From: a virus
Direction: 5' to 3' (one strand)
Length of the DNA: 25,113 bases
Virus record (IMG/VR): IMGVR_UViG_3300025138_000322
Location: 1 to 25,113 of that record
Part shown: one piece after another, positions 325-22,932 of the stretch
Layout of the letters: each line of letters starts with the position of its first letter
How positions within the stretch are numbered: the first letter of the stretch is position 1
Made by a program: the position numbers and the translations under genes
The notes under the pieces: generated by a model
The model's input: the letters and a program-made list of their open reading frames with translations, nothing else
What the model was told of the DNA's origin: nothing
The model's database searches: none

Positions 325-325
325 T

Positions 326-934: not shown

Positions 935-969
935 TTTTTACTTAATCTGCATATACGTATAACCGCAAT

Positions 970-995: not shown

Positions 996-1016
996 CGATA
1001 TAAAAATATTCCCTAT

Positions 1017-1036
1017 TACGATTCCTAATAATCGTA
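1017..1036 (+). other. Second hairpin before the scaffold gene
   Basis: TACGATT and AATCGTA form a 7-bp stem around a 6-nt loop (CCTAAT). The stem ends about 25 nt before the scaffold start codon and is followed by an A-run and then TTTT. Together with the hairpin at 970-995 it makes this leader unusually structured for the window. Confidence 0.45.
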
Positions 1037-1061
1037 TTTCACAAAAAAAAATTTTGAGATT

Positions 1062-2147: not shown

Positions 2148-2185
2148 AAAAAACAATTAATTAACCCTATTAAAACTTAAAAAAA

Positions 2186-3889
2186 ATGAGCTTAAATTCT
2201 CTTTTAGAAAGCGCAAACCCATATCAGTCTTTACAGTCTGATGCGGCTAGATTAGCTAGCAAATGGGAAAAAACAGGTTTATTAGAAGGTTTACAAGGTT
2301 CCCATAAAAATAACATGGGTATGATTCTTGAAAATCAAGCTAAACAACTTGTAGTAGAAACTTCACAAACAGGTGGAGGTGCTGCTTCCACAGGTACATT
2401 CCAAAGTCAAAACCAAGTTAATGTTGGTGGACAATGGGCAGGTGTCGCTCTTCCGTTAGTACGTAAAGTATTCGGACAGATTGCTGCACAAGAATTTGTA
2501 TCTGTACAACCAATGAACTTGCCTTCTGGGCTAGTATTTTACCTAGATTTCCAATATGGAAATAATAAATCTCCATTTGGAGCTGGTCAATCATTATATG
2601 GTAATAAAATTGACGATACTACATTTGGTAACACAAATGAAGGTGGTCTTTATGGATCAGGTAGATTTGGATATTCTATTCAAAGTACATCATCAGCTGT
2701 ATTAGTTGGTAGTGGTAATGCAGGAGTTTCTTCTGTAGCTGGATGGTCAGATGTTGATTTTGATTCTGAGTATTCTGCATCAGCTGTAGCTGGTCAACTT
2801 TACAAAATTGCAATTGATTCTGCATCATTCGGATTCGGAGATTTCGAAGCAGTTAAATCATGGCAATATTTTTCAGGTTCTAACACTGCTGAAGGTGTTT
2901 TAACTGGAAGTGCTGGTATTCAATACTCTGCATTCACTAAATATAGTGCATCAAAAGTAGTATTTATTGTACCTAGTTCTTCATTCCCAACACCAACTAC
3001 TAGTGGATCTGCACAAGTTGTATATAACTTACAACCAACAGACCAATTTAGAGGTGATTTTGAAGCAGGAACAACACAACCTAATACTAAGTATAATGAT
3101 CAATCAGGAGCTAATTGCTGCCCAGATCAAACAATTCCAGAGATTAACATTCAAATGCAATCTATGGCTATCGTTGCAAAAACACGTAAGCTAAAAGCTG
3201 TATGGACTCCTGAGTTCGCACAGGATTTGAATGCATACCATGCTTTGGATGCTGAAGCTGAATTAACTTCTATCCTAAGTGAGTACATTTCATTAGAAAT
3301 TGACTTAGAAATCTTGGGCATGTTAATTGATTCTGCTGCTGCAGGAACAGAAAACTGGTCTGCTGTAAACAACCAAGCTATCACAGGTGGCGGAAATGGT
3401 ACTGTTTCAGATCTTGGATTCTATAATTCTCAAGGACAATGGTTCCAAACATTAGGAACTAAAATCCAAAAATTAAGTAACATTATTCACCAGAAAACAC
3501 TGAGAGGTGGAGCTAACTTTATGGTAGTTTCTCCAACAGTTGCTACGATCCTAGAATCAATTCCAGGATTTGCTGCAGATTCTGATGGTGATGCTGCTAA
3601 AATGAGCTATGCGTTTGGTGTACAAAAAGTTGGTAGTTTAAATACTCGCCAAAAAGTATACAAAAACCCTTACATGACTGCTAACCAAATCCTATTAGGA
3701 TATAGAGGTACACAGTTCTTGGAAAGTGGTGCTGTATTTGCTCCATACATTCCGTTAATTATGACTCCACTTGTATACGATCCAGATACTTTCGTACCAA
3801 GAAAAGGTCTATTAACTAGATATGCTAAGAAAATGGTTCGTCCAGAATTTTATGGATTAATCAATGTATCAGGTTTAAATACTCTATAA
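2186..3889 (+). CDS. 23: Major capsid protein, gp23
   Basis: This 567-residue protein is the T4-type major head protein (T4 gp23 is 521). The N-terminal NPYQSLQSDAARLASKWEKT region and the following GQWAGVALPLVRKVFGQIAAQEFVSVQPM are family hallmarks. So is the C-terminal run from NPYMTANQILLGYRG to FVPRKGLLTRYAKKMVRPEFYG. The prohead protease normally removes the N-terminal peptide after a Glu; LVVE at residues 55-58, before TSQTGGG, sits close to the equivalent of T4 Glu65. A Ser/Gly/Ala-rich segment around residues 150-290 is longer than in T4 and may form a surface insertion. The gene follows the scaffold gene by 38 nt and is closed by a strong terminator, as expected for a highly expressed product. 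Confidence 0.97.
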   Translation: MSLNSLLESANPYQSLQSDAARLASKWEKTGLLEGLQGSHKNNMGMILENQAKQLVVETSQTGGGAASTGTFQSQNQVNVGGQWAGVALPLVRKVFGQIAAQEFVSVQPMNLPSGLVFYLDFQYGNNKSPFGAGQSLYGNKIDDTTFGNTNEGGLYGSGRFGYSIQSTSSAVLVGSGNAGVSSVAGWSDVDFDSEYSASAVAGQLYKIAIDSASFGFGDFEAVKSWQYFSGSNTAEGVLTGSAGIQYSAFTKYSASKVVFIVPSSSFPTPTTSGSAQVVYNLQPTDQFRGDFEAGTTQPNTKYNDQSGANCCPDQTIPEINIQMQSMAIVAKTRKLKAVWTPEFAQDLNAYHALDAEAELTSILSEYISLEIDLEILGMLIDSAAAGTENWSAVNNQAITGGGNGTVSDLGFYNSQGQWFQTLGTKIQKLSNIIHQKTLRGGANFMVVSPTVATILESIPGFAADSDGDAAKMSYAFGVQKVGSLNTRQKVYKNPYMTANQILLGYRGTQFLESGAVFAPYIPLIMTPLVYDPDTFVPRKGLLTRYAKKMVRPEFYGLINVSGLNTL

Positions 3890-3917
3890 TTAGATATTTA
3901 ACTTTTCTTAATAAATT

Positions 3918-3943
3918 AACCCGGCTTTATGCCGGGTTTTTTT
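3918..3943 (+). terminator. Rho-independent terminator after the capsid gene
   Basis: AACCCGGC and GCCGGGTT form a perfect 8-bp stem around the loop TTTAT and run into a stretch of seven T. This GC-rich stem stands out in an AT-rich genome and ends the head block 28 nt after the capsid stop codon. Confidence 0.93.
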
Positions 3944-3952
3944 ATATTTTTC

Positions 3953-3968
3953 ATATGTATAATAAAAT
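3953..3968 (+). promoter_or_regulatory. Recurrent late-promoter-like element before phoH
   Basis: ATATGTATAATAAAAT lies just after the capsid terminator, so it is well placed to restart transcription. It is a one-base variant of the element found before many genes here. The phoH start codon is 117 nt downstream, much further than at the other copies, leaving an unusually long leader in which I see no gene. Confidence 0.5.
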
Positions 3969-4085
3969 GCGTTATACACAAACTATATTTATCTCATTAT
4001 ATAGCTATATTCAAATTTTACTGTTTTTTAACGTATTTACAACGGTTACAATCACTGATAACATAACCCATAATTTCAAGAATCG

Positions 4086-4823
4086 ATGGCAAGTAAACCC
4101 CATACGGACGACATATATCGTCCTAAAAGAATTCCTAAAAACCCAATTAAGTTTAAACTCCAACTTAATGAAGAACAAAAATTAGCAAAAAAACTTATCT
4201 TAGAAAATACTATTACACTTCTAGGAGGAGGAGCTGGTAGTGGAAAAACATTATTAGCATGTAATGTTGCATTAGATGGTTTATTAAGAAGACAGTATGA
4301 TAAAATTATTATAACCCGACCTACTGTATCAAAAGAAGAAATTGGATTTTTGCCTGGTGATTTAAGAGAAAAAATGGATCCTTGGGTTCAACCTATATAT
4401 CAAAATTTTTACCAATTATATGATAAAGTTAAAGTTGAAAAACTTATTGAAGATGGTAAAATAGAAATAGTACCTGTATCCTTTATGAGAGGTAGAACTT
4501 TTTTAGATTCTATGATTATAGTAGATGAAGCTCAAAATGTTACCCACCAACAGATGGAAATGATTACTTCACGTATTGGTTTAAGAAGTAAAATGATGGT
4601 ATGTGGTGATTCACATCAAACAGATTTAAAGAAAAAATCAGATTCAGGTTTTAAATTTTTATATACAGCTGCAAGAAAAATAAAAAATCTAGAAGCAATT
4701 ACATTAATTACTAACCATAGAAATGAAATTGTTGAAGATTTATTAGAATATTATAATGAAGCTATAGATAAAGGAGTAAGTATTACTACTTCTGGTTCAT
4801 ATATTTATAATAATAGAAACTAA
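4086..4823 (+). CDS. phoH: PhoH-like P-loop ATPase
   Basis: This 245-residue protein has the PhoH fold. The Walker A motif GGGAGSGKT is at residues 47-55. The Walker B region IIVDEAQN is at 144-151. Between them lie the PhoH-typical ITRPTV and LPGDLREKMDPW segments, and CGDSHQTDL follows. PhoH proteins are RNA/DNA-associated ATPases that are very common in marine phages; their role in infection is unsettled, with phosphate stress and RNA metabolism both proposed. The short N-terminus lacks the extra domains of bacterial PhoH. Start: the ATG at 4086 is the first in frame and directly precedes a basic linker. The 3' end overlaps a copy of the recurrent AT-rich element. Confidence 0.95.
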   Translation: MASKPHTDDIYRPKRIPKNPIKFKLQLNEEQKLAKKLILENTITLLGGGAGSGKTLLACNVALDGLLRRQYDKIIITRPTVSKEEIGFLPGDLREKMDPWVQPIYQNFYQLYDKVKVEKLIEDGKIEIVPVSFMRGRTFLDSMIIVDEAQNVTHQQMEMITSRIGLRSKMMVCGDSHQTDLKKKSDSGFKFLYTAARKIKNLEAITLITNHRNEIVEDLLEYYNEAIDKGVSITTSGSYIYNNRN

Positions 4824-9216: not shown

Positions 9217-11289
9217 ATGGCAAATTGGAAAAAAGTAATAGTTAGTGGTTCAATTGCTGACTTAGCAGGGTTAGAGCTTAGTAGTTTATCAGCTCAACCT
9301 AGTGAAGGAACAGTATTAACAATTAACGATTCTGGGGTAGTAGGTATAAAAGAAGGAGCATCAGGAACATCTGGTACATCTGGTACTTCTGGACTTACTG
9401 GTACCTCAGGTACTAATGGTTCATCTGGTACTAATGGTTCATCGGGTACTGATGGATCAAGTGGATCTTCAGGTTCAAGTGGTACTGATGGTTCATCAGG
9501 TTCAAGTGGAACAAATGGATCTTCGGGTACAGATGGTTCAAGTGGTTCTTCGGGTACAGACGGTTCAAGCGGTTCAAGTGGCTCTTCTGGTGTAAATGGA
9601 ACAAGTGGCACAAGTGGTACTTCTGGTACAACTGGTACTTCTGGTTCTTCTGGTACTAATGGTTCATCAGGAACTGATGGTTCATCAGGTTCAAGTGGAT
9701 CTTCAGGTTTAACTGGTACATCAGGAACAAATGGTTCAAGTGGAACAGATGGTTCATCAGGAACAGATGGTTCATCAGGTTCATCTGGTACCTCTGGAAG
9801 TAATGGCTCATCAGGAACTACTGGTTCTTCAGGTTCTTCGGGTTCAAGCGGTTCTTCAGGTGCTGATGGTTCATTTGGTGGTGCTACATTTGATTATACT
9901 TTTGATACTACAATAACAGCTGCAGATCCAGGTCAAGGTAAAGTTAGATTAAATAATACTTCACAATCTGGTTCAACTGCAATGTATGTTGATATTACAG
10001 ATGATGATGGAACAAGCATCCAATCCTTTTTAGAAACAATAGATAGTTCGACTTCAGCTATAAAAGGTCACGTAAGAATTGCTAATAGAACAGATGCAAC
10101 CCAATTTTTATTATTTAGTATACCAGATTTAACTGATAATACAGGGTGGTGGACAATTGATATTAATAACCAAGCATTTTCAGCAGGTTCACCTTTTACA
10201 AATTTAGAAGATGTTACTTTAGCATTTGTTGTTACAGGTGATAAAGGAGATAGTGGTACTGCAGGAACCTCGGGTTCAAGTGGGTCAAATGGTTCTTCAG
10301 GAACAGACGGAACTTCAGGAACAAATGGTTCTTCAGGTTCTGCAGGAACCTCGGGTTCAAGCGGTTCTTCGGGTACAGACGGTACATCAGGAACAAACGG
10401 TTCTTCAGGTACAGATGGCTCAAGTGGTTCTTCAGGATCAAGTGGTGTAAATGGAACAAGTGGTACCTCAGGTACAACTGGTACTTCTGGATCTAGTGGT
10501 TCTTCAGGAATAAATGGAACAAGTGGTACAGATGGTTCTTCGGGATCAAGTGGAGTAACTGGTTCTTCAGGAACAGATGGAACTTCAGGAACAAACGGTT
10601 CAAGTGGAACAAATGGATCTTCAGGAACAAATGGTTCAAGTGGTTCTTCAGGTACAGATGGTACTTCAGGAACTAATGGTTCAAGTGGAACTAATGGTTC
10701 AAGTGGAACAAATGGATCTTCGGGTACAGATGGTTCAAGTGGTTCTTCGGGTACAGATGGTTCTTCGGGATCTAGTGGATTATTAAGTTTAACTGGAACA
10801 ACTACAAATGGTGTAATAACACTAGCAGCTTCAGGGGCGCCTAATGCCGATGTAAATGCTAGAATGGTATTTGATGCAGATGGTGGACATCTTTCAAATA
10901 CTGGTCTATTAACAATTACAGGTGATGAAATTGTAACAGGTAACTTAACAGTACAAGGTACAGCATCTTTCCAAAATTCAGAAAACTTATTAGTTAAAGA
11001 TAGATTTATATTATTAGCTTCAGGATCTGATTCAGCTGGTGATGGTGGTATTGTAATACAACAGGGAACACAAGATTATGGTGATGCATTTGCATTTGAT
11101 GGTTTATCTTCATTAAGATGGGGAATAACTAGTTCATTCCATGCAACGGGATCAGCATTTACTCCAGATGCATTTATGGCAACTGTAGTTGTTGGAACAA
11201 CTAATGACCCAGATGATACACCTGCGAGATATGATAAAGAAGGAAATATATTTATTGCTGATAATTCAGATATTTATATTTATTCTTAA
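9217..11289 (+). CDS. Collagen-like fibre protein (690 residues)
   Basis: This is a modular surface fibre. Residues 1-47 are an N-terminal domain (MANWKKVIVSGSIADL...) shared with the 1511-residue protein. Residues 49-218 are a collagen-like block of GSSG, GTSG, GTNG and GTDG units. Residues 219-345 are a compact domain (FGGATFDYTF ... WWTIDINNQAFSAGSPF) also shared with the larger protein. Residues 346-521 are a second collagen-like block. Residues 522-690 form a unique C-terminal domain (LTVQGTASFQNSENLLVKDRFILLASGS) of the kind found at tips of phage fibres. The repeats are Gly-X-Y-like but nearly proline-free and use Ser, Thr, Asn and Asp, so a proline-stabilised triple helix is not expected. 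I infer a tail-fibre or decoration role; the exact virion location is unknown. Confidence 0.85.
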   Translation: MANWKKVIVSGSIADLAGLELSSLSAQPSEGTVLTINDSGVVGIKEGASGTSGTSGTSGLTGTSGTNGSSGTNGSSGTDGSSGSSGSSGTDGSSGSSGTNGSSGTDGSSGSSGTDGSSGSSGSSGVNGTSGTSGTSGTTGTSGSSGTNGSSGTDGSSGSSGSSGLTGTSGTNGSSGTDGSSGTDGSSGSSGTSGSNGSSGTTGSSGSSGSSGSSGADGSFGGATFDYTFDTTITAADPGQGKVRLNNTSQSGSTAMYVDITDDDGTSIQSFLETIDSSTSAIKGHVRIANRTDATQFLLFSIPDLTDNTGWWTIDINNQAFSAGSPFTNLEDVTLAFVVTGDKGDSGTAGTSGSSGSNGSSGTDGTSGTNGSSGSAGTSGSSGSSGTDGTSGTNGSSGTDGSSGSSGSSGVNGTSGTSGTTGTSGSSGSSGINGTSGTDGSSGSSGVTGSSGTDGTSGTNGSSGTNGSSGTNGSSGSSGTDGTSGTNGSSGTNGSSGTNGSSGTDGSSGSSGTDGSSGSSGLLSLTGTTTNGVITLAASGAPNADVNARMVFDADGGHLSNTGLLTITGDEIVTGNLTVQGTASFQNSENLLVKDRFILLASGSDSAGDGGIVIQQGTQDYGDAFAFDGLSSLRWGITSSFHATGSAFTPDAFMATVVVGTTNDPDDTPARYDKEGNIFIADNSDIYIYS
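9361..9870 (+). repeat. Collagen-like repeat block A1
   Basis: Short degenerate units encode GTSG, GSSG, GTNG and GTDG tetrapeptides in the first collagen-like gene. Synonymous codons vary (TCA, TCT, TCG, AGT for Ser), so the block is ancient enough to have drifted or is selected against exact identity. Confidence 0.9.
10252..10779 (+). repeat. Collagen-like repeat block A2
   Basis: This is the second block of GSSG/GTNG/GTDG units in the same gene, after the shared central domain. Long near-identical nucleotide runs are shared with the blocks at 11971 and 13366, giving ample substrate for recombination or slippage. Confidence 0.9.
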
Positions 11290-11823: not shown

Positions 11824-14800
11824 ATGCCAAATTGGAAAAAAGTAATCATCAGTGGATCTAATGCTGATCTAAATGAATTAAAACTATCAGGTCTTTCAAC
11901 CCAAGGATCTGAAAACACAACCCTTGTAATTAATAGTAGTGGTGTAGTAGGTACTAGAGAAAATGCAGCTTCTAGTGGCTCATCAGGCTCATCAGGCTCA
12001 TCAGGGTCTTCAGGTGTAAATGGTTCATCAGGTACTAATGGTTCATCAGGTACTAATGGTTCATCAGGTTCAAGTGGCTCTTCAGGTACAACTGGTACAG
12101 ATGGTACTTCAGGTACTAATGGTTCAAGTGGTTCATCAGGAATAAATGGAACAAGTGGTACAGATGGTTCTTCGGGATCAAGTGGAACAAGTGGTTCATC
12201 TGGTTCTTCAGGCACATCTGGTACAACAGGGACTTCTGGGTCCTCGGGATCAAGTGGAACAAATGGTTCAAGTGGCTCATCAGGAACAACTGGTACCTCA
12301 GGTACTAATGGTTCATCTGGTACTAATGGTTCATCAGGAACAAATGGTTCAAGCGGATCATCAGGAACAGATGGAACTTCAGGTACAAATGGCTCTTCAG
12401 GTACAGATGGTTCAAGTGGCTCTTCAGGATCAAGTGGTTCAAGTGGAATTTCTGGTACATCGGGATCAAGTGGTTCATCTGGTTCTTCTGGTACAACTGG
12501 TACTTCAGGTACAACAGGAACTTCTGGATCATCAGGTTCAAGTGGCTCTTCAGGTACAAATGGTTCTTCAGGTACAGATGGAACATCAGGAACTAATGGT
12601 AGTTCAGGTTCATCAGGAACAGATGGAACTTCAGGTACAAATGGCTCTTCAGGTACAAATGGCTCTTCAGGAACAAACGGTTCTTCAGGAACAGATGGTT
12701 CTTCAGGAACAGATGGTACATCAGGAACAAACGGTTCTTCAGGAACAAATGGTTCAAGTGGTTCTTCAGGTACAGATGGCTCAAGTGGCTCTTCAGGAAC
12801 AAATGGTTCTTCAGGTACAAACGGCTCAAGTGGTACAAGTGGCTCTTCAGGTACAACTGGTACTTCTGGATCTAGTGGTTCAAGTGGTACAAACGGTTCT
12901 TCAGGATCTTCAGGTAGTTCAGGTAGTAACGGCTCTTCAGGATCAAGTGGATCTAGTGGTTCATCTGGTTCTTCGGGACAAGATGGTAACTTTGGTGGTG
13001 CTACTTTTAATTATACTTTTGAAACTAATACCAATGTTGGGGCAGACCCAGGTGCTGGAGATATAAGATTAAATAGCTCTACACAAAATGCAGCAACTAT
13101 ATCGGCTATAAGTCAAACAACAGAAGATGGTGATAATATACAAGAGTTTTTAGAATCTATAGATGCCTCAACATCAGCCGTAAAAGGTCATATGAGAATG
13201 GCAGATAAATTCTCCCCAGAAAATTTTATATTATTTTCAATATCAAACTTAACAGACATAGGTACATATTGGACAATAAATATAAATGAACAAGCATCAT
13301 CAGCAGCTTCACCTTTTAGTGCTAATGAAGCAATAATTGTTTCTTTCGCTTTAGTAGGTGATAGAGGGGATAATGGTTCTTCAGGAACAAGTGGTTCATC
13401 AGGATCAAGTGGGTCTAATGGTTCATCAGGATCTTCAGGAACAAATGGTTCAAGTGGCTCTTCTGGTTCTTCAGGAACAGATGGCTCTTCAGGCTCAAGT
13501 GGCTCAAGCGGATCTTCAGGTACTAACGGTTCAAGCGGCTCTTCAGGTACTAATGGTTCATCTGGTACAAATGGCTCATCAGGAACAAATGGTTCTTCAG
13601 GCTCAAGTGGCTCAAGCGGCTCTTCAGGTACTAATGGCTCATCCGGAACAAACGGGTCTTCAGGTACAAATGGTAGTTCAGGTTCATCTGGTACTAATGG
13701 TTCATCTGGAACAAATGGCTCAAGCGGATCTTCAGGTACTAATGGTTCATCAGGAACAAACGGTTCATCCGGCTCTTCAGGTACAAATGGTTCATCAGGT
13801 ACAAATGGTTCAAGCGGATCATCAGGAACAGATGGAACTTCTGGTTCAAGCGGTTCAAGCGGCTCAAGCGGTTCAAGCGGCTCTTCAGGCACAACTGGTA
13901 CTTCAGGTACAAGTGGTGTTTCGGGCTCTTCAGGCTCTTCAGGCTCTTCTGGTTCTAATGGCTCGTCAGGTACTTCAGGTTCAAGTGGAACATCTGGTTC
14001 TTCAGGAACATCTGGTTCTTCAGGAACTTCTGGATCAAGCGGTTCAAGCGGTTCTTCGGGCACAACTGGTACTTCAGGTACAAGTGGTAATACAGGAACA
14101 TCTGGCTCAAGTGGCTCATCAGGTTCTTCAGGAGTAAATGGAACAAGTGGCTCATCAGGAGTAAACGGAACAAGTGGTTCTAGTGGTACAAGTGGAGTAA
14201 ATGGTAGTTCAGGTTCAAGTGGAGTAAATGGTAGTTCAGGTTCAAGTGGAACAAATGGCTCAGCAACAATTTCAAATAATGTTGATAATAGAGTATTAAC
14301 AGCTACTGGAACATCAACAATTAATGGTGAATCTAATCTTACTTTTAATGGATCATTACTATCAGTAACTGGTTGTCTTTCTGCAACTGGAAGAATAAAC
14401 TTTGGAACAGATAATGACCAATTAGGTTCATGTGCTTCTATATTAGGTGGAGAACTTAATACAATAATTATGGGTGCTAGCCATTCTACAATAGGAGGTG
14501 GTTTTAAAAATACTGCATCAAATGCAAGTACAGATTGTACTTTTATAGGAGGAGGATGTGGTAATAAGGTAGCAAGCCAATATAATATAGTAGTAGGTGG
14601 TCAAAATAACTCTTCTGCAAATAATTATGCAGCTATAGTTGGTGGTGCCAATAACAATAATCAAGGTTGTCATGGATTTATAGGAGGAGGTTCTAGTAAT
14701 ACTAATAGTCTTAATTGTGTAACATCATTAATTGGAGGTTGTTTAAATTATATTGATGGTAATGTTAACTGCTCAATTTTATTAGGAGGTAGAGAAAATT

Positions 14801-16359
14801 GCATGTACGCTGGTAATAGTTTACCTGCTTATTGTACCCAATATGCTTTTGTAGGTACTGGTTGTAAAAACCAAATTAATAAATCAGGTTGTCAAGCCTG
14901 TTTTTCAACAATATTAAATGGATCTCATAATGAAAATTTCTGTAATTTTTCTTTTATAGGAGGAGGAACAAAAAATACTTCATCTGTAAGTTTTAGTACA
15001 ATTTTAGGTGGAGAACGAAATTCAATAACAACTGCAGGGTGTGGAATTTGCTGTTCTGGAAACAATTTTATTGGAGTAGGATATTTAAATACTATCCAAG
15101 GTAGTCTACATGGAAGTGTAATTCTTAGTGGTAATACTAATTGTATTACTGGTTCTAATACCTCTAACGATTTGGCTCTTTTGTCCTGTAATAATATGAT
15201 AGTGGGGGGCCAGACAAATAAAATACTAGTTGCTGAAAGATCAAACCACAATGCAATAGTTGGTGGTAGATGCAATATTATATGCACTACAGGACCCAGT
15301 TATGCTTCCCAATCTACTGGAAATAATGTAATTGGAGGTGGTGCGTTTAATTTTATGATTATGCGTTCTGATGTTGGTCAATTTTGTCTCGGAGCTCAAG
15401 GAGGTAATACTATATCAGGAGGAAAGGGTAATAAAATTTGTTGTGTTGGTAATAGTTTCATAGGAGGGGGGGTTAATAATATAATGTGCTGTGCTGGAGT
15501 GCATAATGTTATCGCTGGAGGATCACAAAATAAAATAAGATGTCAAAGGGGTAATTCCATTCTTGGAGGGTGTTGTAATATAATATGTGGAAATCAATCA
15601 ACACAAGGATGTAATGCTATTGTAGGTGGTTTTGGTAATTTAATAGGAGCGGGTGATGCTTGTGTTTATCTTAATACAATTGGAGGTGGTTCGGGTAATA
15701 AAATTTGTTGTGATAGTCAAAATAATTTTGTAGCAGGATGTAATAACTGTTTAGGTGCTGGAAGTTCTTCAAATAATTCAAGATTTTCTGCAGTATTTGG
15801 ATGTAATAATAAAACCTGTGCTGATCATAATTTAATGTCAGGGTATAATAATACTATAGGGTCAAGTTATAATAGAACAGCTATTTTAGGTACTTATGGT
15901 AAAACTGCAACTGCAGATGATCAATTAATGGTTTGCTGTATTTGTGCTTTTGGATCTTTAAGTAAAGCTTCTGGTACATTTACAATTGATCACCCAAACC
16001 CATGTAAAACAGCAACACATCATTTAAAGCATAGTTTTGTTGAATCACCAACAGCTGGGGATAATGTATATAGATGGGAAGTTGATATTGATGATACACT
16101 TCACGGTGAGATAGTTCTTCCAGAATATTATAGATATTTAAATGAAAATTCTCAAGTATGGATTAATCCTGTAAATAATTTAGGTAGAGCATTTGGTATA
16201 GTAAATATTAGTGCAACTAAAGTAAAAATTACAACATCAGACCCTGGAAAATTTAATGTGTTAGTTATTGGAACTAGAAAAGATAAAGCAGCAGTTGAAG
16301 CTTGGAAAGGTGTTGAAATTAAAAAAACAAAAGAAGAAAAATTAAATAATAGAAATTAA
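11824..16359 (+). CDS. Giant collagen-like adhesin/fibre with Cys-rich beta-roll repeats (1511 residues)
   Basis: Residues 1-48 (MPNWKKVIISGSNADL...) and 388-514 are paralogous to the N-terminal and central domains of the 690-residue fibre. Residues 50-386 and 515-814 are GSSG/GTNG/GTSG collagen-like blocks. A strand module (VLTATGTSTINGESNLTF) follows at about 822-845. Residues 868-1359 hold about 25 units of the pattern (hydrophobic)-I-G-G-G-x-x-N, resembling YadA-like or haemagglutinin left-handed beta-roll repeats. About 42 Cys lie in the C-terminal 650 residues and none in the collagen blocks. Residues 1384-1511 form a separate cap domain starting GTFTIDHPNP with LKHSFVESP, a module I know from the ends of other phage and bacterial surface proteins. 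The protein is probably a trimeric receptor-binding fibre or head/tail decoration. Its position in the virion is inference. Confidence 0.85.
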   Translation: MPNWKKVIISGSNADLNELKLSGLSTQGSENTTLVINSSGVVGTRENAASSGSSGSSGSSGSSGVNGSSGTNGSSGTNGSSGSSGSSGTTGTDGTSGTNGSSGSSGINGTSGTDGSSGSSGTSGSSGSSGTSGTTGTSGSSGSSGTNGSSGSSGTTGTSGTNGSSGTNGSSGTNGSSGSSGTDGTSGTNGSSGTDGSSGSSGSSGSSGISGTSGSSGSSGSSGTTGTSGTTGTSGSSGSSGSSGTNGSSGTDGTSGTNGSSGSSGTDGTSGTNGSSGTNGSSGTNGSSGTDGSSGTDGTSGTNGSSGTNGSSGSSGTDGSSGSSGTNGSSGTNGSSGTSGSSGTTGTSGSSGSSGTNGSSGSSGSSGSNGSSGSSGSSGSSGSSGQDGNFGGATFNYTFETNTNVGADPGAGDIRLNSSTQNAATISAISQTTEDGDNIQEFLESIDASTSAVKGHMRMADKFSPENFILFSISNLTDIGTYWTININEQASSAASPFSANEAIIVSFALVGDRGDNGSSGTSGSSGSSGSNGSSGSSGTNGSSGSSGSSGTDGSSGSSGSSGSSGTNGSSGSSGTNGSSGTNGSSGTNGSSGSSGSSGSSGTNGSSGTNGSSGTNGSSGSSGTNGSSGTNGSSGSSGTNGSSGTNGSSGSSGTNGSSGTNGSSGSSGTDGTSGSSGSSGSSGSSGSSGTTGTSGTSGVSGSSGSSGSSGSNGSSGTSGSSGTSGSSGTSGSSGTSGSSGSSGSSGTTGTSGTSGNTGTSGSSGSSGSSGVNGTSGSSGVNGTSGSSGTSGVNGSSGSSGVNGSSGSSGTNGSATISNNVDNRVLTATGTSTINGESNLTFNGSLLSVTGCLSATGRINFGTDNDQLGSCASILGGELNTIIMGASHSTIGGGFKNTASNASTDCTFIGGGCGNKVASQYNIVVGGQNNSSANNYAAIVGGANNNNQGCHGFIGGGSSNTNSLNCVTSLIGGCLNYIDGNVNCSILLGGRENCMYAGNSLPAYCTQYAFVGTGCKNQINKSGCQACFSTILNGSHNENFCNFSFIGGGTKNTSSVSFSTILGGERNSITTAGCGICCSGNNFIGVGYLNTIQGSLHGSVILSGNTNCITGSNTSNDLALLSCNNMIVGGQTNKILVAERSNHNAIVGGRCNIICTTGPSYASQSTGNNVIGGGAFNFMIMRSDVGQFCLGAQGGNTISGGKGNKICCVGNSFIGGGVNNIMCCAGVHNVIAGGSQNKIRCQRGNSILGGCCNIICGNQSTQGCNAIVGGFGNLIGAGDACVYLNTIGGGSGNKICCDSQNNFVAGCNNCLGAGSSSNNSRFSAVFGCNNKTCADHNLMSGYNNTIGSSYNRTAILGTYGKTATADDQLMVCCICAFGSLSKASGTFTIDHPNPCKTATHHLKHSFVESPTAGDNVYRWEVDIDDTLHGEIVLPEYYRYLNENSQVWINPVNNLGRAFGIVNISATKVKITTSDPGKFNVLVIGTRKDKAAVEAWKGVEIKKTKEEKLNNRN
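11971..12981 (+). repeat. Collagen-like repeat block B1
   Basis: About 1 kb encodes nearly uninterrupted GSSG/GTSG/GTNG/GTDG units. The reverse complement of this block reads as an EPLVP-type open frame, a by-product of the repeat and not a gene. Confidence 0.9.
13366..14265 (+). repeat. Collagen-like repeat block B2
   Basis: About 0.9 kb of the same type encodes residues 515-814. GTNGSSG heptads dominate the first half. Longer GSSGSSG and GTSGSSG runs dominate the second half, which ends in several GVNGSSG/GVNGTSG units. Confidence 0.9.
14425..15900 (+). repeat. GGGxxN beta-roll repeat domain, Cys-rich
   Basis: Roughly 25 units follow a pattern such as STIGGGFKN, TFIGGGCGN, AAIVGGANN, SFIGGGTKN, NAIVGGRCN and NTIGGGSGN, spaced mostly 15-25 residues apart. 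Cys occurs repeatedly at the positions after the Asn (for example NKICC, NIICG, NIMCC). The DNA copies are diverged, so this is an old protein-level repeat. Confidence 0.85.
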
Positions 16360-16376
16360 TTTAAATAAATAAATTA

Positions 16377-16392
16377 ATATTTATAACAAAAT
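16377..16392 (+). promoter_or_regulatory. Recurrent late-promoter-like element
   Basis: ATATTTATAACAAAAT ends 9 nt before the start codon of the small conserved gene at 16402. No other copy occurs until 20836. Confidence 0.6.
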
Positions 16393-16401
16393 ATAATACA
16401 A

Positions 16402-16710
16402 ATGACACATACTTGGAAAATTTACGATCTTAAAAGAACAATATCAACTGGAGTAGTTACTGAAGTAACATATGCTTGTGAATCAGAAGATAATGGACAT
16501 GGGTCAAGAAAAATAGGATATTTTAACATTTCTGGTGATCCTGCTGATGCCGAATTTATTGCTTATGATGATTTAACAGAAGCTAATGTTTTAGAATGGT
16601 TAAATGATAATGTTGAAAAACAAGTATTTATGGATGCTAATACACTTAGTATACAAAATTCAATTGCAAGTGCAGCAGCTATAACAGAAAAAGATGGTAC
16701 TCCTTGGTAA
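16402..16710 (+). CDS. Small conserved phage protein (WKIYDLKR / GVVTEVTY type)
   Basis: This 102-residue protein has the order W-K-I-x-D-L-K-R, G-V-V-T-E-V-T-Y and L-T-E-x-x-V-L-E-W-L. I recognise this layout from a small uncharacterised family common in T4-like marine phages (I believe DUF7936). It looks like a compact alpha/beta domain with no signal or membrane segment. Its function is unknown; its place between the fibre genes and the glycosyltransferase cluster, behind a late-promoter-like element, suggests a virion-related role. Confidence 0.75.
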   Translation: MTHTWKIYDLKRTISTGVVTEVTYACESEDNGHGSRKIGYFNISGDPADAEFIAYDDLTEANVLEWLNDNVEKQVFMDANTLSIQNSIASAAAITEKDGTPW

Positions 16711-16724
16711 TATAGTTAGGAGTA
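16698..16724 (+). other. Hairpin overlapping the stop codon before the glycosyltransferase cluster
   Basis: TACTCCT and AGGAGTA form a perfect 7-bp stem around a 13-nt loop that contains the TAA stop at 16708-16710. No T-run follows, so termination is uncertain. It may attenuate or insulate the following cluster. Confidence 0.4.
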
Positions 16725-16770
16725 TCTAAATTAGTTTCGTATATTAGTTTTAATGTAAAAATAGTTATAA

Positions 16771-17652
16771 ATGAATATTATATTTCAAATAGATGGTGGT
16801 TTAGGTAAAAGTATTATGGCAACAGCCATGATTAAAGTTATTAAAAAAAGATACAAAAATTCTTTTCTTATAATTGTAACAGCATACCCCGATGTTTTTT
16901 TAAATAATCCTAATATAGATGAAATTCATCTACCTACACAAGTAAATGGTTTATATTTAAAACATATTAAGGATAAAGATTGCAAGATACTTGTTAGTGA
17001 CCCGTATAGAGATACAGATTTTATAACTGAAAAACCCATTCATTTATTTAAAACTTGGTGTAAAATATATGGTTTAAAATATAATAATGAACAACCTCAA
17101 ATTTATTTATCTCAACCTGAAATAGATTATTTCACACCTTATTATAAAACGGATAAACCTATATTAGCTATGCAAGTTAATGGTGGTCCAGCAGGATTAG
17201 GTTACCAATATTCATGGACAAGAGATATACCAGAAACTACAGTATTAGAATTAATAGAGCATTATAAAAATGATTATACTATAATCCATATAAAAAGAGA
17301 GGATCAAAAGGTTTACCCTGATACTATGCAAGCCTTAGATGGATATAGAAGTATAGCTATACTTTTACAAATGTCGGATAAAAGACTATTAATTGATAGT
17401 TTTGTTCAACATTTAGCAGCTTCCTTAAATAAAGAATCTACAGTATGTTGGTCTAGTACTAAACCTGAAATATTTGGGTATAAAGTACATAACAACATTA
17501 AAGCAGAAAAGTTTACAAAAGAACCAAATCTTTTACAAGCAATATATGGTCCTTTTGCTTTATCTGAAGATATAAGTACTATTCCTTATAATGATTTAAG
17601 TGAAGTATTTGATACAAATAAAATTATAACTTCTATAAATAACCAAAAATGA
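16771..17652 (+). CDS. Glycosyltransferase family 9-like protein
   Basis: This 293-residue protein resembles the heptosyltransferase family (GT9), which moves sugars from nucleotide donors. The N-terminus MNIIFQIDGGLGKSIMATAMIKVIKKRY matches the GxG(D/K) loop and first helix of these GT-B enzymes. The order of strands (FLIIVTAYPD, NIDEIHLP) also fits. The late segment LLIDSFVQHLAASLNKESTVCW corresponds to the family's D-S-x-x-x-H-L-A-A-A-L donor-site motif. It is shorter than bacterial WaaC/WaaF (about 320-350). It opens the six-gene cluster and overlaps the next gene by four bases (ATGA). No late-promoter-like element precedes it. The acceptor is unknown; the neighbouring fibre protein is a candidate. 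Confidence 0.75.
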   Translation: MNIIFQIDGGLGKSIMATAMIKVIKKRYKNSFLIIVTAYPDVFLNNPNIDEIHLPTQVNGLYLKHIKDKDCKILVSDPYRDTDFITEKPIHLFKTWCKIYGLKYNNEQPQIYLSQPEIDYFTPYYKTDKPILAMQVNGGPAGLGYQYSWTRDIPETTVLELIEHYKNDYTIIHIKREDQKVYPDTMQALDGYRSIAILLQMSDKRLLIDSFVQHLAASLNKESTVCWSSTKPEIFGYKVHNNIKAEKFTKEPNLLQAIYGPFALSEDISTIPYNDLSEVFDTNKIITSINNQK

Positions 17653-18098
17653 TATATTGGTTTACAGGGCAACCAGGATCTGGTAAAACAGTATTAGCAA
17701 ATTTATTAAAAGATAATTACTTACCCCATGCTTATCGTATAGATGGGGATGAAATGAGAGAGTTATTTACTAATAAAGACTACTCTATAAAAGGTAGAAT
17801 AACTAACATAGATGCGGCTCAAAAAATAGCTCATTATTTACATAATCAAGGTAAAGATGTAATTGTATCTCTAGTATCTCCCTATTTAGATCAAAGAGAA
17901 GAATTTAAATTAAAATTAGGTTGGCCCCTTAAAGAAATTTATGTACATTATGATAAATTAATAAACCTTAGGGGTAGAGAAAAATTTCATGTTTTAGACT
18001 TTCAAAAACCAATTTGTGAATTTTTAAATATTGATACTACAGTTGATACTCCTAATGAATCATTAACTAAAATATTAAAATATGTTAAAACAGTATAG
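17649..18098 (+). CDS. Adenylylsulfate-kinase-like P-loop kinase
   Basis: This 149-residue protein has Walker A GQPGSGKT at residues 7-14. RIDGDEMRELF (30-40), GRITNIDAAQKIA (49-61) and VIVSLVSPY (71-79) follow, in the order typical of APS kinase (CysC). Those enzymes phosphorylate adenylylsulfate to PAPS. It is shorter than bacterial CysC (about 200). The Asp of the DRxxN motif is Gly here, and the C-terminal lid region (RGREKFHVLDFQKP) differs from the classical one, so the true substrate may not be APS. Translational coupling with both neighbours (4-nt and 17-nt overlaps) ties it to glycan metabolism. Confidence 0.75.
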   Translation: MIYWFTGQPGSGKTVLANLLKDNYLPHAYRIDGDEMRELFTNKDYSIKGRITNIDAAQKIAHYLHNQGKDVIVSLVSPYLDQREEFKLKLGWPLKEIYVHYDKLINLRGREKFHVLDFQKPICEFLNIDTTVDTPNESLTKILKYVKTV

Positions 18099-18438
18099 TA
18101 TGTTTATTGGTAGATATCAACCATGGCATGAAGGGCATCGTTGGTTAATAGACCAAAGATTAAATGAAGGAAAAAATGTATGGGTAGCTATTAGATCTAG
18201 ACCAGATTCCCCAGATGAACCTTGGGGTGCTGATAGGGTTCAAGATAATATTAAAGAAGAACTTAAAGATTTAATTGAAGAAGGAAGAGTAATTGTTTCT
18301 ATTATCCCTGATATTGAATCTATTAATTATGGTAGAGGAGTAGGATATGATATAATAGAGCACATCCCACCAAAAAAAGTAGAAAAAATATCAGCAACAA
18401 AAATTAGAGAAAAATTAAGAAAAAGTGGTAAGTTATAA
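18082..18438 (+). CDS. HIGH-superfamily nucleotidyltransferase
   Basis: This 118-residue protein has the signature FIGRYQPWHEGH (residues 8-19; the H-x-G-H is H16-H19) and ISATKIRE (103-110). These are the two nucleotide-binding motifs of the NMN-adenylyltransferase/cytidylyltransferase superfamily. These enzymes couple a phosphorylated substrate to ATP or CTP. The small size suggests a single-domain enzyme; the substrate could be NMN or a sugar or alcohol phosphate for glycan synthesis. An alternative ATG at 18100, one base after the preceding stop, would remove six residues from the first strand. I keep 18082 because the longer strand fits the family, but both are possible. Confidence 0.8.
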   Translation: MLKQYSMFIGRYQPWHEGHRWLIDQRLNEGKNVWVAIRSRPDSPDEPWGADRVQDNIKEELKDLIEEGRVIVSIIPDIESINYGRGVGYDIIEHIPPKKVEKISATKIREKLRKSGKL

Positions 18439-18643
18439 ACGACACATTGCAAAAACAATATCATGGAGGATAATAGGAACAATAGATACAATACTAATTT
18501 CAGGAATTATAACTGGTTCTTGGGAAGCGGGTTTAGCTATAGGAGGAATAGAAGTTTTTACTAAAATGCTTCTTTATTTTTTTCACGAAAGAATTTGGTA
18601 TAAATTTTCAAAATTTGGGGTAAATGGTAAAAGAAAATCTTAA
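18425..18643 (+). CDS. DUF2061 small membrane protein
   Basis: This 72-residue protein begins at a GTG inside the preceding gene; no ATG is available before the conserved region. The segment KRHIAKTISWRIIGTIDTIL, then GSWEAGLAIGGIEVFTKMLLYFFHERIWYK, is the DUF2061 signature. Two membrane helices are predicted by eye (about 16-30 and 36-53), with basic ends. The family has no established function. From memory its bacterial members often sit next to sulfate-activation (cysC/cysN-type) or polysaccharide genes, and here it again follows an APS-kinase-like gene. The 14-nt and 20-nt overlaps with its neighbours suggest coupled expression. Confidence 0.88.
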   Translation: MVSYKRHIAKTISWRIIGTIDTILISGIITGSWEAGLAIGGIEVFTKMLLYFFHERIWYKFSKFGVNGKRKS

Positions 18644-19751
18644 TGTTTTATTTTTAGCACCTCACCTTAGCACTGGTGGTATGCCTGCTTTTTTATTAAA
18701 AAGAATAGAGTCATTATCTAATTACCCCAATATAAATTTATTTGTTTTAGAATGGTGTAATTATAGCCATACTTTTATAGTCCAAAAAGAAAAAATAATT
18801 AAATTAGTAGGGGAAAACTATTTTAATTTTGGAGATTTATATACACCTGAAAAAGGTATACATGGTGAAAAAGAAAATATAATAGAATTTTTATATGAAA
18901 AAAAAATTAATATAATTCATATAGAAGAAATACCAGAAGGATTTGATTCATTTAATCCATTTGATAAAAAACTTTTAAAAAAATTATATAGTAAAAATCA
19001 TCCATGGCGTATAGTTGAAACATGTCATAATATGTATTTCCAACCAGATACCGAAAAATTATTTGAACCCGATGGGTACGCCTGTGTTACTCCTTATCAT
19101 GTAGATAATACATTTAAAAACAAACAATCACCAAAAGAATTAATTACTTTTCCAATTGATGATTCTATTATTTACAATGAAACTAGAGATAATTTATTAA
19201 ATGAAATGGGATATAAATTAAAAGGAGAATTCCATATTATTAATATAGGGTTATGGACTCCAGGTAAAAACCAAAAATATGCTTTAGAAATTGCTAAATT
19301 TTTATATGATAAATATGGTTTTACTTATATTTTTCATTTTATAGGAAATCAAGCACCAAATTTTAAAGAATATTGGGGACCATTAAAGGATAAATTACCT
19401 CCTAATGTTAATATATGGGGTGAAAGAAATGATGTAGATAAATTTTTTAAATTTTCTGATTTAATGTTATTTACTTCTGACTGGGAATGTAACCCTATAG
19501 TATTAAAAGAAGCTATATCGAATAATAAAAAAATAATGGCTTATAATTTAGATCATTACGGGGATGAATATACTCCTTATATTGTTCCATTAAGTGGAAA
19601 TGTAGTAGATGATTCTAATTCTTTAATTAATACTATTTTTACACCTATTAAATATAATGTTAAAGAAAACAAAAATAATATTAAAAATTTTGCTTTAAAA
19701 CATATTAATTTTTATAAATCTTTATTAGAAAATGAAACAAAAAGACAATAA
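18624..19751 (+). CDS. GT4-like glycosyltransferase (GT-B fold)
   Basis: This 375-residue protein has an N-terminal Rossmann start, NVLFLAPHLSTGGMPAFLLKRI (STGGMP at residues 16-21). This is the acceptor-side Gly-rich loop of family-4-type glycosyltransferases. The C-terminal domain begins near FHIINIGLWTPGKNQKYALEIA (about 203-224), as in these enzymes. It carries SDWECNPIVLKEAI, where E288 and E296 form the E-x7-E motif that contacts the nucleotide-sugar donor. No membrane anchor is seen. It overlaps DUF2061 by 20 nt and the next gene by 20 nt. The sugar and acceptor cannot be read from the sequence. Confidence 0.85.
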   Translation: MVKENLNVLFLAPHLSTGGMPAFLLKRIESLSNYPNINLFVLEWCNYSHTFIVQKEKIIKLVGENYFNFGDLYTPEKGIHGEKENIIEFLYEKKINIIHIEEIPEGFDSFNPFDKKLLKKLYSKNHPWRIVETCHNMYFQPDTEKLFEPDGYACVTPYHVDNTFKNKQSPKELITFPIDDSIIYNETRDNLLNEMGYKLKGEFHIINIGLWTPGKNQKYALEIAKFLYDKYGFTYIFHFIGNQAPNFKEYWGPLKDKLPPNVNIWGERNDVDKFFKFSDLMLFTSDWECNPIVLKEAISNNKKIMAYNLDHYGDEYTPYIVPLSGNVVDDSNSLINTIFTPIKYNVKENKNNIKNFALKHINFYKSLLENETKRQ

Positions 19752-20832
19752 AATAAAAATAAGTTTTGAATATGGTCCTAAAGTAGAAATTATAGGAAAT
19801 AAACCAAAAAATTATTCTATAAAATTTATTAATGGTTTTAATAATGAAGTAGTACATAAAGATATTATTAAAAATAATATGTGGACTAAAGCTCATTTAG
19901 AATATTATATTCCTTGGATTATAGAAATAGATGGAAAAATAGCCCATAAATTTAATGTTAAAGATAAAAAAGTAAAAATTACATTTGATTCTAAGTCAAT
20001 AGGTGATACAATTGCTTGGATACCTCAAGTTGTAGAATTTCAAAAAATATATAGTTGTAAAGTATGTGTTAGTACATTTCATAATGAATGGTTTGAAAAC
20101 TTAGAAGCATATAAAAATATTAAATTTATAAAACCAGATATCCCATATAATGCTTATGTTCATTATAAAATAGGATGGTTTAAAATTAATGGGAAATGGG
20201 ATAATGGTTTAAAAAACCCAATTCAAGCTAATTCAATACCTTTAATAAAGACTATAACTGATATTATTAATGTCCCATTTAGGGAATTAAACTATGGTTT
20301 AGATTTTAAACCTAGTAAAAGACCTATAAAAGAAAAGTACATTTGCATTGGTCCTAGATCAACAGCAGGAATAAAAGAATGGCCATATGATAATTGGAAA
20401 GAATTAGCTACTAAATTAACTAAAAAAGGATATAAAGTAATTAATTTATCTTATGAAGGATTTGAAGGTAAAGATATTATAAATAAAAAAGAACTAGATT
20501 GGCCTACTACTTGGAATTATATGCACCATGCAGAAGTATTTATTGGATTAGGTTCTGGTTTATCTTGGGTAAATTGGGCATTAAATAAACATACTATAAT
20601 GATAAATAATTTTATTCCATATGGTTATGAATTTACTAATAATTTAACTAAAATAGAAAACCACTCAGTAAATAATAATGTATGGTCAAACCCCCATTAT
20701 GTATTTGATGCTGGAGATTGGAATTGGGACCCAGAATATCAGGGTACTGAAAAACAACATATAGCACAAAAATCAATTACAGTAAAACAAGTATATGAAA
20801 GTATAATAAAACATTTAACTAATAAAAATTAA
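19732..20832 (+). CDS. TibC/BAHT-type autotransporter O-heptosyltransferase homologue
   Basis: This 366-residue protein resembles the bacterial autotransporter heptosyltransferases (TibC, Aah). These attach heptose to Ser residues of repetitive adhesin passengers, using ADP-heptose in the cytoplasm. Family features are an N-terminal beta domain (1-80), SKSIGDTIAWIPQVVEF (87-103, with the candidate catalytic Asp at 92), IGPRSTAGIKEWPYDNW (206-222), GLGSGLSWVNWAL (272-284) and the C-terminal FDAGDWNWDPEYQGT (325-339). In the characterised enzymes the C-terminal part carries four Cys that bind iron. By motif alignment from memory those positions are here Asn314, Val317, Asp333 and Ala345, so the metal site appears lost. 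It closes the cluster and starts 20 nt inside the preceding gene. Confidence 0.82.
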   Translation: MKQKDNKIKISFEYGPKVEIIGNKPKNYSIKFINGFNNEVVHKDIIKNNMWTKAHLEYYIPWIIEIDGKIAHKFNVKDKKVKITFDSKSIGDTIAWIPQVVEFQKIYSCKVCVSTFHNEWFENLEAYKNIKFIKPDIPYNAYVHYKIGWFKINGKWDNGLKNPIQANSIPLIKTITDIINVPFRELNYGLDFKPSKRPIKEKYICIGPRSTAGIKEWPYDNWKELATKLTKKGYKVINLSYEGFEGKDIINKKELDWPTTWNYMHHAEVFIGLGSGLSWVNWALNKHTIMINNFIPYGYEFTNNLTKIENHSVNNNVWSNPHYVFDAGDWNWDPEYQGTEKQHIAQKSITVKQVYESIIKHLTNKN

Positions 20833-20861: not shown

Positions 20862-21116
20862 ATGAGTGAAAAAATCAAGTTATCGAAGGAAGAATTAAAA
20901 ACTCTTAAAGGTTATCAACAACAACAAAATCAATTTACTTTTGAATTAGGTAATGTAGATATTCAAAAAGCAATTTTAGAAGGGCAAAGAAGTGCAATTT
21001 TAGAAAATTTTGCTAATTTACAAGAAAAATCTAATAAATCAGCTAAGGAACTACAAGAAAAATATGGTGACGGGAATATTGATTTAGAAACTGGAGAATT
21101 TACTTTAGTAAAATAG
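20862..21116 (+). CDS. Small coiled-coil phage protein ending YGDGNIDLETGEF
   Basis: This 84-residue, highly charged protein has a long helical stretch (about residues 6-65, rich in Glu, Lys and Gln) and the C-terminal segment KYGDGNIDLETGEFTLVK. I have seen this ending in small uncharacterised proteins of T4-like marine phages. It has no signal or membrane segment. It stands alone between the glycosyltransferase cluster and the sheath gene, with its own promoter-like element. The function is unknown. Confidence 0.75.
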   Translation: MSEKIKLSKEELKTLKGYQQQQNQFTFELGNVDIQKAILEGQRSAILENFANLQEKSNKSAKELQEKYGDGNIDLETGEFTLVK

Positions 21117-21174: not shown

Positions 21175-22932
21175 ATGGCAGAAACATTAATATCTCCTGG
21201 CGTATTAGCAAGAGAAAATGACCAATCATTCATTACAGCACAACCCTTAGTAAGAGGAGCAGCTATTATTGGACCTACTGTTAAAGGTCCTGTTGAAAGA
21301 CCTACTTTAGTTAGTAGTTTTAGTTCATTCCAAGCAAGATTTGGAGGAGCTCTTTCAAGTGGATCAGGTCAATTTACTAACTTAACATCAATTGCAGCAA
21401 ACCAATACTTTCAAAATGGTGGAGCATCACTACTAGTTACACGTGTAGTATCGGCTTCATCTACTTGGACATCTGCTACTAGTTCATTAATCCCTACAGG
21501 ATCAAATGGTTTTGGTACAAATGGAGCAGTAAATGAATCTCCATTCGTTCTTGAAACAATTTCTTCAGGTGAAATAATGAATAATGGAACAACATCAGAT
21601 GGAAATGGTTCACTAGTAAGTGGATCTGTAGATAATGTAAGATGGGAAATTGCTAGTGTTAATAGTGCTTCTGGTGTATTTTCACTTCTAATTAGAAGAG
21701 GAAATGATACTCAAAATAATAAAGTAGTTCTAGAATCATATAATAATATTTCATTAGATCCTTTTTCTAGAAATTATATAGCAAAAGCAGTAGGTGATTT
21801 AACTACTACAGTAGTAACTTCTGATGGGACTACATATTTACAAGAATCAGGTTCTAACCCTAATATTTCTGCTTATGTAAGAGTTAAACAAGTAAATTTC
21901 AAAACACCTAATTATTTTAATAATGATGGATCTGCAAAAACAGAATTTACTGGTAGTTTACCTGCAGTAGGATCAGGTAGTGTTTTTGGTGCATTTGGTG
22001 AGGGAGCTGGAAGTAATGAAGCTACAACAGCTACTAACAGATATTACCAAGATATAGATGCTACAAATGTACAAGGGTTAATAGCTGGTGATTATACTAC
22101 CGCTATTGCATTACTTGCAGACACTGATAGTTACCAATACAATGTAATATCAGCTCCAGGATTATATTATCAAGCATATTCAGCACCTTTAACTAGTTTA
22201 ATTAATAATACTATTGCTAGAGGAGACTCAATAGCAGTAGTAGATATGGTACCTTATAATGCTTCAATTACTGTTGTAAACCAACAGGCTGGAGGTTTAG
22301 ATACTAGTTACGCAGCAACATATTGGCCTTGGTTACAAACTATTGACCCAAACAGTGGAGAATTAGTTTACATACCAGCTTCTACATTTATACCAGGTGT
22401 ATATGCATTTACAGATGCGTCAGCAGACCCATGGTTTGCACCAGCAGGTATTACTAGAGGAGGAATGGGACAAGTTGTTAGAGCTGAAAGAAAATTAACA
22501 TCAGGAAATAGAAATACTTTGTATGAAGCAAATGTTAACCCAATAGCTACATTCCCTAATCAAGGAGTAGTAGTATTTGGTCAAAAAACATTACAAAAAG
22601 CAGCTTCTGCATTAGATAGAGTAAATGTACGTAGATTGTTAATTGTACTTAAAGATTATATTTCTCAAATTGCTGATAACTTAGTATTTGAACAAAATAC
22701 AATAGCGACAAGACAAAATTTCTTAACGCAAGTTAATCCTTATTTAGAATCAGTACAACAAAGACAGGGATTATATGCCTTTAAGGTAGTAATGGATGAA
22801 AGTAATAACACACCAGATGTTATAGATAGAAATGAGTTGATTGGACAAATATTCCTACAACCAACTAAAACAGCTGAATTTATTTTACTAGATTTCAATG
22901 TATTACCAACTGGAGCAACATTTCCAGCATAA
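21175..22932 (+). CDS. 18: Contractile tail sheath protein, gp18
   Basis: This 585-residue protein (T4 gp18 is 659) begins SPGVLARENDQSF and continues VRGAAIIGPTVKGPVERPTLVSSF, the N-terminal hallmark of contractile sheath proteins. The C-terminal third has RGGMGQVVRAERKLTSGNRNTLYEANVNPIATF, VNVRRLLIVLKDYISQIADNLVFEQN and the final helix-strand element QIFLQPTKTAEFILLDFNVLPTGATF, all typical of the polymerising core. The middle (about 130-300) is the variable outer domain. It is followed by the tail tube gene, as in T4. It shows that the virion has a contractile tail. Confidence 0.95.
   Translation: MAETLISPGVLARENDQSFITAQPLVRGAAIIGPTVKGPVERPTLVSSFSSFQARFGGALSSGSGQFTNLTSIAANQYFQNGGASLLVTRVVSASSTWTSATSSLIPTGSNGFGTNGAVNESPFVLETISSGEIMNNGTTSDGNGSLVSGSVDNVRWEIASVNSASGVFSLLIRRGNDTQNNKVVLESYNNISLDPFSRNYIAKAVGDLTTTVVTSDGTTYLQESGSNPNISAYVRVKQVNFKTPNYFNNDGSAKTEFTGSLPAVGSGSVFGAFGEGAGSNEATTATNRYYQDIDATNVQGLIAGDYTTAIALLADTDSYQYNVISAPGLYYQAYSAPLTSLINNTIARGDSIAVVDMVPYNASITVVNQQAGGLDTSYAATYWPWLQTIDPNSGELVYIPASTFIPGVYAFTDASADPWFAPAGITRGGMGQVVRAERKLTSGNRNTLYEANVNPIATFPNQGVVVFGQKTLQKAASALDRVNVRRLLIVLKDYISQIADNLVFEQNTIATRQNFLTQVNPYLESVQQRQGLYAFKVVMDESNNTPDVIDRNELIGQIFLQPTKTAEFILLDFNVLPTGATFPA

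Follow-up and report, generated by a model that had tools for sequence, protein, structure and literature searches.

A TibC-like glycosyltransferase and companion enzymes encoded beside Ser/Thr-rich collagen-like fibres in a far-T4-like phage: a candidate fibre-modification set

Fibre and enzyme genes in the window

The window, meaning the whole stretch of DNA analysed here, is a 25,113-base IMG/VR record from a far-T4-like phage, and it encodes a head protease, major capsid protein, PhoH, sheath and tube. Its capsid protein shares 55% identity with the counterpart in Flavobacterium phage immuto and 46% with the one in Microcystis phage Mel-JY01. The hosts are probably flavobacterial bacteria. 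The genes are ordered as neck-side genes, two fibre genes, a DUF7936 gene, six overlapping genes (16771-20832) and the sheath gene. The glycosyltransferase genes therein sit within the virion structural module, between the fibre and sheath genes and on the same strand.

9217..11289, plus strand: fibre 1, 690 aa with 360 aa collagen-like; candidate acceptor (PF01391 6e-51; composition)
11824..16359, plus strand: fibre 2, 1511 aa, collagen-like at 52-393 and 512-814, then Cys-rich IGGxxN repeats; candidate acceptor (PF01391 9e-87; composition; repeats)
16402..16710, plus strand: DUF7936 protein, 102 aa, structural-module gene (PF25590 8e-20)
16771..17652, plus strand: putative GT9/TibC-like glycosyltransferase, a weak assignment (hhalign to TibC profile 58%, 209 columns)
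17649..18098, plus strand: APS-kinase (CysC)-like P-loop kinase (PF01583 1e-14, over cut-off; solved APS kinases 7e-12)
18082..18438, plus strand: short HIGH-motif (GRYQPWHEGH) NMNAT-type nucleotidyltransferase (PF01467 1e-6, over cut-off; solved NMNATs 5e-8)
18425..18643, plus strand: DUF2061 small membrane protein (PF09834 1e-22; Flavobacteriales homologue between cysC and cysD)
18624..19751, plus strand: GT4-family glycosyltransferase (PF00534 3e-7, over cut-off; weak SdgA match 8e-7)
19732..20832, plus strand: TibC-like O-glycosyltransferase (TIGR04414 4e-49; TibC crystal sequence 7e-27; Foldseek 1e-26)
20862..21116, plus strand: 84-aa gene; together with the sheath it marks the 3' limit of the variable fibre/enzyme interval (synteny)
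21175..22932, plus strand: tail sheath, the enzyme-independent seed for comparing relatives (phrog_23 3e-72)

The arrangement of one small gene followed by six overlapping genes, given in a preliminary description of this DNA, agrees with the open reading frames found; successive enzyme genes overlap on the same strand by 4, 17, 14, 20 and 20 bases. The cluster is syntenic across dozens of IMG/VR contigs, and dN/dS was 0.11-0.22 for the TibC-like gene and 0.10-0.37 across its five companions in the cluster. This low dN/dS, together with the synteny, indicates that the cluster is more than a chance assembly. The DUF7936 gene was ruled out as a member of the enzyme set, as it also occurs in the TibC-less phage immuto, and it probably lies outside the glycosylation set. 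The immuto DUF7936 gene (L083 34148-34564) carries the annotation lysozyme.

Within the collagen-like parts, Ser/Thr occupied 90% of the X positions in fibre 1 and 93% in fibre 2, while the Y position was mostly Ser, Asn or Asp and Pro was nearly absent from both. Fibre 2 had been described as a 1511-residue protein made largely of GSSG-type units; its length and location were correct, but the collagen-like share amounted to 645 of 1511 aa (43%). The final ~640-700 residues comprise IGGxxN-type beta-solenoid-like repeats and a C-terminal domain, and either the collagen-like or this solenoid part may contain the acceptor residues. In the C-terminal 640 aa of 11824-16359, the solenoid-like repeats are unusually Cys-rich (CGICC, KICC).

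The TibC-like protein and the companion glycosyltransferases

The TIGR04414 (Aah/TibC) profile scored the window protein at 167.5 bits, under the curated cut-off of 200, and that of one relative (L037) at 196.5 bits; a phage-family profile compared with the TibC crystal sequence gave 2e-64. The AF2 model (pLDDT 89.7) contained the N-terminal strands of the beta-barrel, and its best Foldseek match was TibC (4rap; E 1e-26, TM 0.83, ~380 columns), with GT9 heptosyltransferases following. Asp92 and Lys215, the counterparts of the catalytic Asp110 and donor Lys230 of TibC, were kept in 102/102 phage homologues, and the alignment placed Thr211 and Trp279 at the donor positions Thr226 and Trp305. The position of the adenine-contacting Arg286 is Thr in the window protein and, judged by eye, in L037 too.

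The TibC iron-finger cysteines 339, 342, 358 and 370 correspond to Asn314, Val317, Asp333 and Ala345 in the window. All four were kept in 91 of the 102 phage homologues, and the window's clade and L072 have other residues at all of these positions. Mutating any of them inactivated TibC (PMC4358343). The region of the thumb, a beta-hairpin in TibC, is ~ten residues shorter in the window protein, where the model shows just a short strand. Given the purifying selection on these genes (dN/dS 0.11-0.22), the fingerless proteins probably retain activity, in an assembly form other than that of TibC.

The window enzyme shares with TibC of ETEC and AAH, both of the BAHT family (PMC4358343), the fold, the N-terminal beta domain, the catalytic Asp and the donor-binding Lys/Thr/Trp positions, and its gene likewise lies near one for a long repetitive Ser-rich protein. 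It differs from that family in being phage-encoded and under the TIGR04414 cut-off, in the shorter thumb region, in the Thr at the Arg286 position and in the iron finger, which its whole clade lacks. Membership of the family would further imply a dodecamer and heptose transfer to Ser. No autotransporter substrate gene was found near it, the neighbours being phage structural genes. Because the iron finger is lost and the Arg286 position is Thr, the product of 19732..20832 is TibC-like and not a canonical BAHT member; the earlier TibC/BAHT-type label is upheld in sequence and fold relation and withdrawn for canonical membership. A literature search turned up no paper that connects the term autotransporter heptosyltransferase to phage genomes.

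The earlier labels of APS kinase, HIGH-type nucleotidyltransferase, DUF2061 and GT4 were each matched by their profiles. The GT9-like label of 16771-17652 did not gain Pfam support: no GT family of that database matched, no solved relative gave a meaningful PDB sequence match, and the match to the TibC profile was weak. Confirmation of GT9 by structure was tried and rejected owing to a poor AF2 model (pLDDT 55.5). A homologue of this gene lies directly 3' of a tail-fibre gene in Pelagibacter phage HTVC112P, and in the cyanophage-like marine virus AG-345-L05 homologues come after fibre-like genes and DUF7936. The latter locus (L244 3-14616) has three similar large fibre-like genes, interspersed with genes for proteins of weak similarity to the sulfotransferase NoeE and with oxygenase-like genes. 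A GT4 domain is fused to TibC in many relatives.

Fibre type and enzyme content across relatives

Relatives of TibC were found at 80 IMG/VR loci. As this set was chosen on TibC itself, sheath-seeded loci were gathered in addition, and a third sheath scan yielded a nearly identical candidate pool. Complete p331-to-sheath intervals contained Ser/Thr-collagen in 0/40 cases without TibC and in 6/16 cases with TibC, where it was adjacent. In the other 10 of the 16 TibC intervals Ser/Thr-collagen was not adjacent, and the interval of L033 contains TibC by itself; for L010 and L145, a whole-contig pattern search located Ser/Thr-collagen elsewhere on the contig. On contigs of at least 40 kb, Ser/Thr-collagen was present in 21/23 with TibC versus 1/14 relatives without it (Fisher p 4e-7, uncorrected for kinship, with several records near-duplicates), and the sole TibC-less contig with such a collagen ends inside its fibre gene. 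The preliminary description had proposed looking for this co-occurrence across T4-like phage and metagenome contigs, and it is observed here; clusters lacking a Ser/Thr-rich fibre, whose frequent occurrence it named as refuting its idea, were seen locally in the ten intervals above and were largely gone at contig scale.

A sheath tree of 78 rows provided 8 independent TibC contrasts, in which Ser/Thr-collagen was concordant in 4-5 and opposed in 0 (rarely 1), with L144 scored positive by composition (37%) where the strict pattern gave 0. The tree-corrected association was not significant (median p 0.125); parsimony placed only ~8 TibC changes on this tree, and the sign test was underpowered. 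The direction of the association is clear and its power is low.

TibC also adjoins Ser/Thr-collagens where it is not sheath-adjacent, as seen in L045, L046, L048 (opposite strand) and Mel-JY01. In the Mel-JY01 record (L082), the collagen-like open frame 2-3052 runs off the record start, where linearisation probably split the fibre gene; this region is annotated as short genes, partly on the opposite strand. The 735-kb uncultured phage LR756501.1 (L084) presents ~1200 Gly-Ser/Thr collagen pattern matches and a TibC homologue. Ser/Thr-containing collagens without TibC occur in L200 (26.7 kb).

The target found for TibC is Ser in a beta-helix passenger, not collagen. The beta-solenoid was considered as the co-varying acceptor instead of collagen: IGGxxN repeats were present in 29/107 TibC loci (and in 2/132 loci without TibC), which makes collagen the more constant partner of TibC and the solenoid a less likely candidate.

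HldE-type heptose genes, candidates for sugar-donor supply, lie beside TibC in L037. Directly 3' of TibC, positions 2592-4414 encode rfaE_dom_II (4e-29), HAD, cupin and rfaE_dom_I (1e-32) domains, the two rfaE matches (HldE-like adenylyltransferase and kinase) both being under equivalog cut-offs. Judged by these matches, this one relative would carry part of an ADP-heptose route. Other relatives add PIG-L, C-methyltransferase, Polysacc_synt_2 and RmlD-like genes.

A different enzyme accompanied the Pro-containing collagens, which are Ser/Thr-poor in L042, L119, L128, L108 and L225 and mixed in L148. A 2OG-Fe(II) oxygenase was counted at 6/7 Pro-rich-collagen loci versus 1/41 Pro-free loci (p 4e-6 before any correction, with perhaps four lineages represented). 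The count used local profiles, with a bias from the seed OX1, which came from a Pro-rich locus; a PF13640 record search was left out, having missed known matches such as L042. A GT4/GT25/oxygenase-type fusion lies beside the oxygenase in L042, L119 and L148, and no TibC was in view in L108, L225 and L148. In L042 1-8781, L119 1-6026 and L148 2-7525, GPK/GPQ- or GPR-type collagens adjoin a PKHD-type 2OG-Fe(II) hydroxylase and the fusion, an arrangement that resembles the hydroxylation and glycosylation of animal collagen. The enzymes therefore seem to track fibre chemistry. The company of oxygenases and Pro-rich collagens suggests that the clustered enzymes act on the fibre, where either Ser/Thr supplies the hydroxyls or the hydroxylase makes them.

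Candidate fibre glycosylation and its alternatives

The observed gene content and order, fold, catalytic residues, purifying selection and association with fibre type are best explained, with fair though far from complete confidence, if 16771-20832 is a late-module cytoplasmic set for O-glycosylation of the Ser/Thr-rich collagen-like fibres that the phage itself encodes. The modification would occur before or during tail assembly. The TibC-like enzyme would put the first sugar on fibre Ser/Thr hydroxyls, and the GT4 and putative GT9-like enzymes would then lengthen or diversify this glycan. Another step of activation or modification may come from the kinase, nucleotidyltransferase and DUF2061 protein; it could be nucleotide-linked and could have a relation to sulfate activation. 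Since the fibres are almost Pro-free, the glycans could stabilise the triple helix, provide shielding or alter receptor contact. The acceptor, the sugar, the order of steps and the benefit are what we infer here. The central proposal of the preliminary description, fibre decoration by phage enzymes, is strengthened by the co-occurrence, the fibre adjacency elsewhere, the HldE-type genes of L037 and the tracking of oxygenases.

The main rival is that the enzymes modify host LPS or capsule, thereby blocking superinfection or altering receptors, with fibre proximity reflecting a shared hypervariable host-recognition region. The pelagimyophage host-recognition cluster, where T4-like marine phages likewise carry glycosyltransferases and rfaE among fibre genes, has been interpreted as host LPS modification (PMC7029224); the parts of that article considered here do not relate fibre chemistry to the enzymes encoded. 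The epimerases, C-methyltransferase and RmlD-like enzymes of relatives are usual for surface sugars, their sugar-nucleotide enzymes fit surface-glycan synthesis equally, and LPS heptosyltransferases belong to the GT9 family. Against this, the best fold match is the protein O-glycosyltransferase TibC, with WaaC/WaaF far behind, and the six window genes included no recognisable lipid-carrier transferase, flippase or polymerase. The gene set also co-varies with fibre type and lies inside the late structural module, and we regard host-surface modification as unlikely.

The accessory genes raise the question of sulfation. The nearest bacterial relatives of the kinase are mostly from Flavobacteriales, with flavobacterial CysC relatives ~50% identical; the order CysC, DUF2061, CysD, CysN is frequent (CysD and CysN named by eye), and some of these CysC proteins are fused to a HAD domain. 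Owing to this kinship with flavobacterial CysC[-HAD]-DUF2061-CysD-CysN operons, the kinase and DUF2061 probably derive from a sulfate-activation operon, and they hint at the host group. The earlier suggestion that these enzymes could activate a sugar finds no support for the kinase and nucleotidyltransferase. The set might instead sulfate or 3'-phosphonucleotide-modify the fibre or its glycans, with the two enzymes making PAPS or an analogue and DUF2061 carried over from a cys operon. By sequence the kinase falls in the APS kinase family (PF01583 over cut-off), a HAD gene is retained in L027 between those for the kinase and the nucleotidyltransferase, and NoeE-like proteins (weak, E ~1e-4) alternate with fibres in AG-345-L05. 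However, neither an ATP sulfurylase (CysDN or Sat) nor a sulfotransferase was found at significant score among the window cluster proteins, and the nucleotidyltransferase is NMNAT-like. In the relative L002 the kinase is missing and the HIGH motif of the nucleotidyltransferase has decayed, yet the GT and TibC genes persist; kinase and nucleotidyltransferase therefore look like an accessory pair, and sulfation as the role of the set is improbable.

The kinase and nucleotidyltransferase also occur in other settings. In Stenotrophomonas phages, a fused kinase-nucleotidyltransferase adjoins a NADAR gene, which raises the idea of NAD salvage. L257 1-6346, binned as Chitinophagaceae and probably a phage contig, encodes a Thr-rich repeat protein, then transferase-like, FkbM-like, GT25-like, epimerase-like and GT2-like genes (all these labelled by eye), followed by kinase, nucleotidyltransferase and DUF2061 in the window's order.

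Linked inheritance of fibre and glycan enzymes with different targets in one mobile cassette would fit the few TibC changes and underpowered sign test on the sheath tree, but is very improbable given that TibC and Ser/Thr-collagen meet in other lineages in differing orders and strands and that the oxygenase accompanies Pro-rich collagens.

Glycosylation of the phage's own fibres has partial parallels. SgtA of Clostridioides difficile, encoded beside the collagen-like BclA3, attaches O-linked sugar to Thr/Ser of its collagen region (PMC7157674), and its gene adjoins that of a collagen-like protein as in the window; SgtA is of the O-GlcNAc transferase type and modifies GPT repeats in a spore protein, whereas the window has another enzyme type, Pro-free repeats and a virion protein. 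Mycobacteriophages encoding glycosyltransferases bear virion-protein glycans (Freeman et al. 2023, as cited in PMC12619734), with capsid and tail-tube C-termini as the targets named there, in contrast to the collagen-like fibre and TibC-like enzyme proposed here.

As a tentative generalisation, which is plausible but falls short of probable, a group of aquatic T4-like phages may carry exchangeable fibre-modification cassettes matched to fibre chemistry. Pro-free Ser/Thr collagens would receive TibC-type O-glycosylation, and Pro- or Lys-containing ones 2OG-Fe(II) hydroxylation with glycosylation, by a hydroxylase together with GT4/GT25/oxygenase fusions and in the manner of animal collagen. The fibre-glycosylation reading makes a defined prediction, namely fibre glycopeptides. 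If it is true, TibC-type glycosylation of proteins would reach beyond bacterial adhesins to virion fibres, marine-phage glycosyltransferases that are usually filed as host-surface modifiers would gain a function, and the use of Pro-free Gly-Ser/Thr collagens as fibres would have an explanation.
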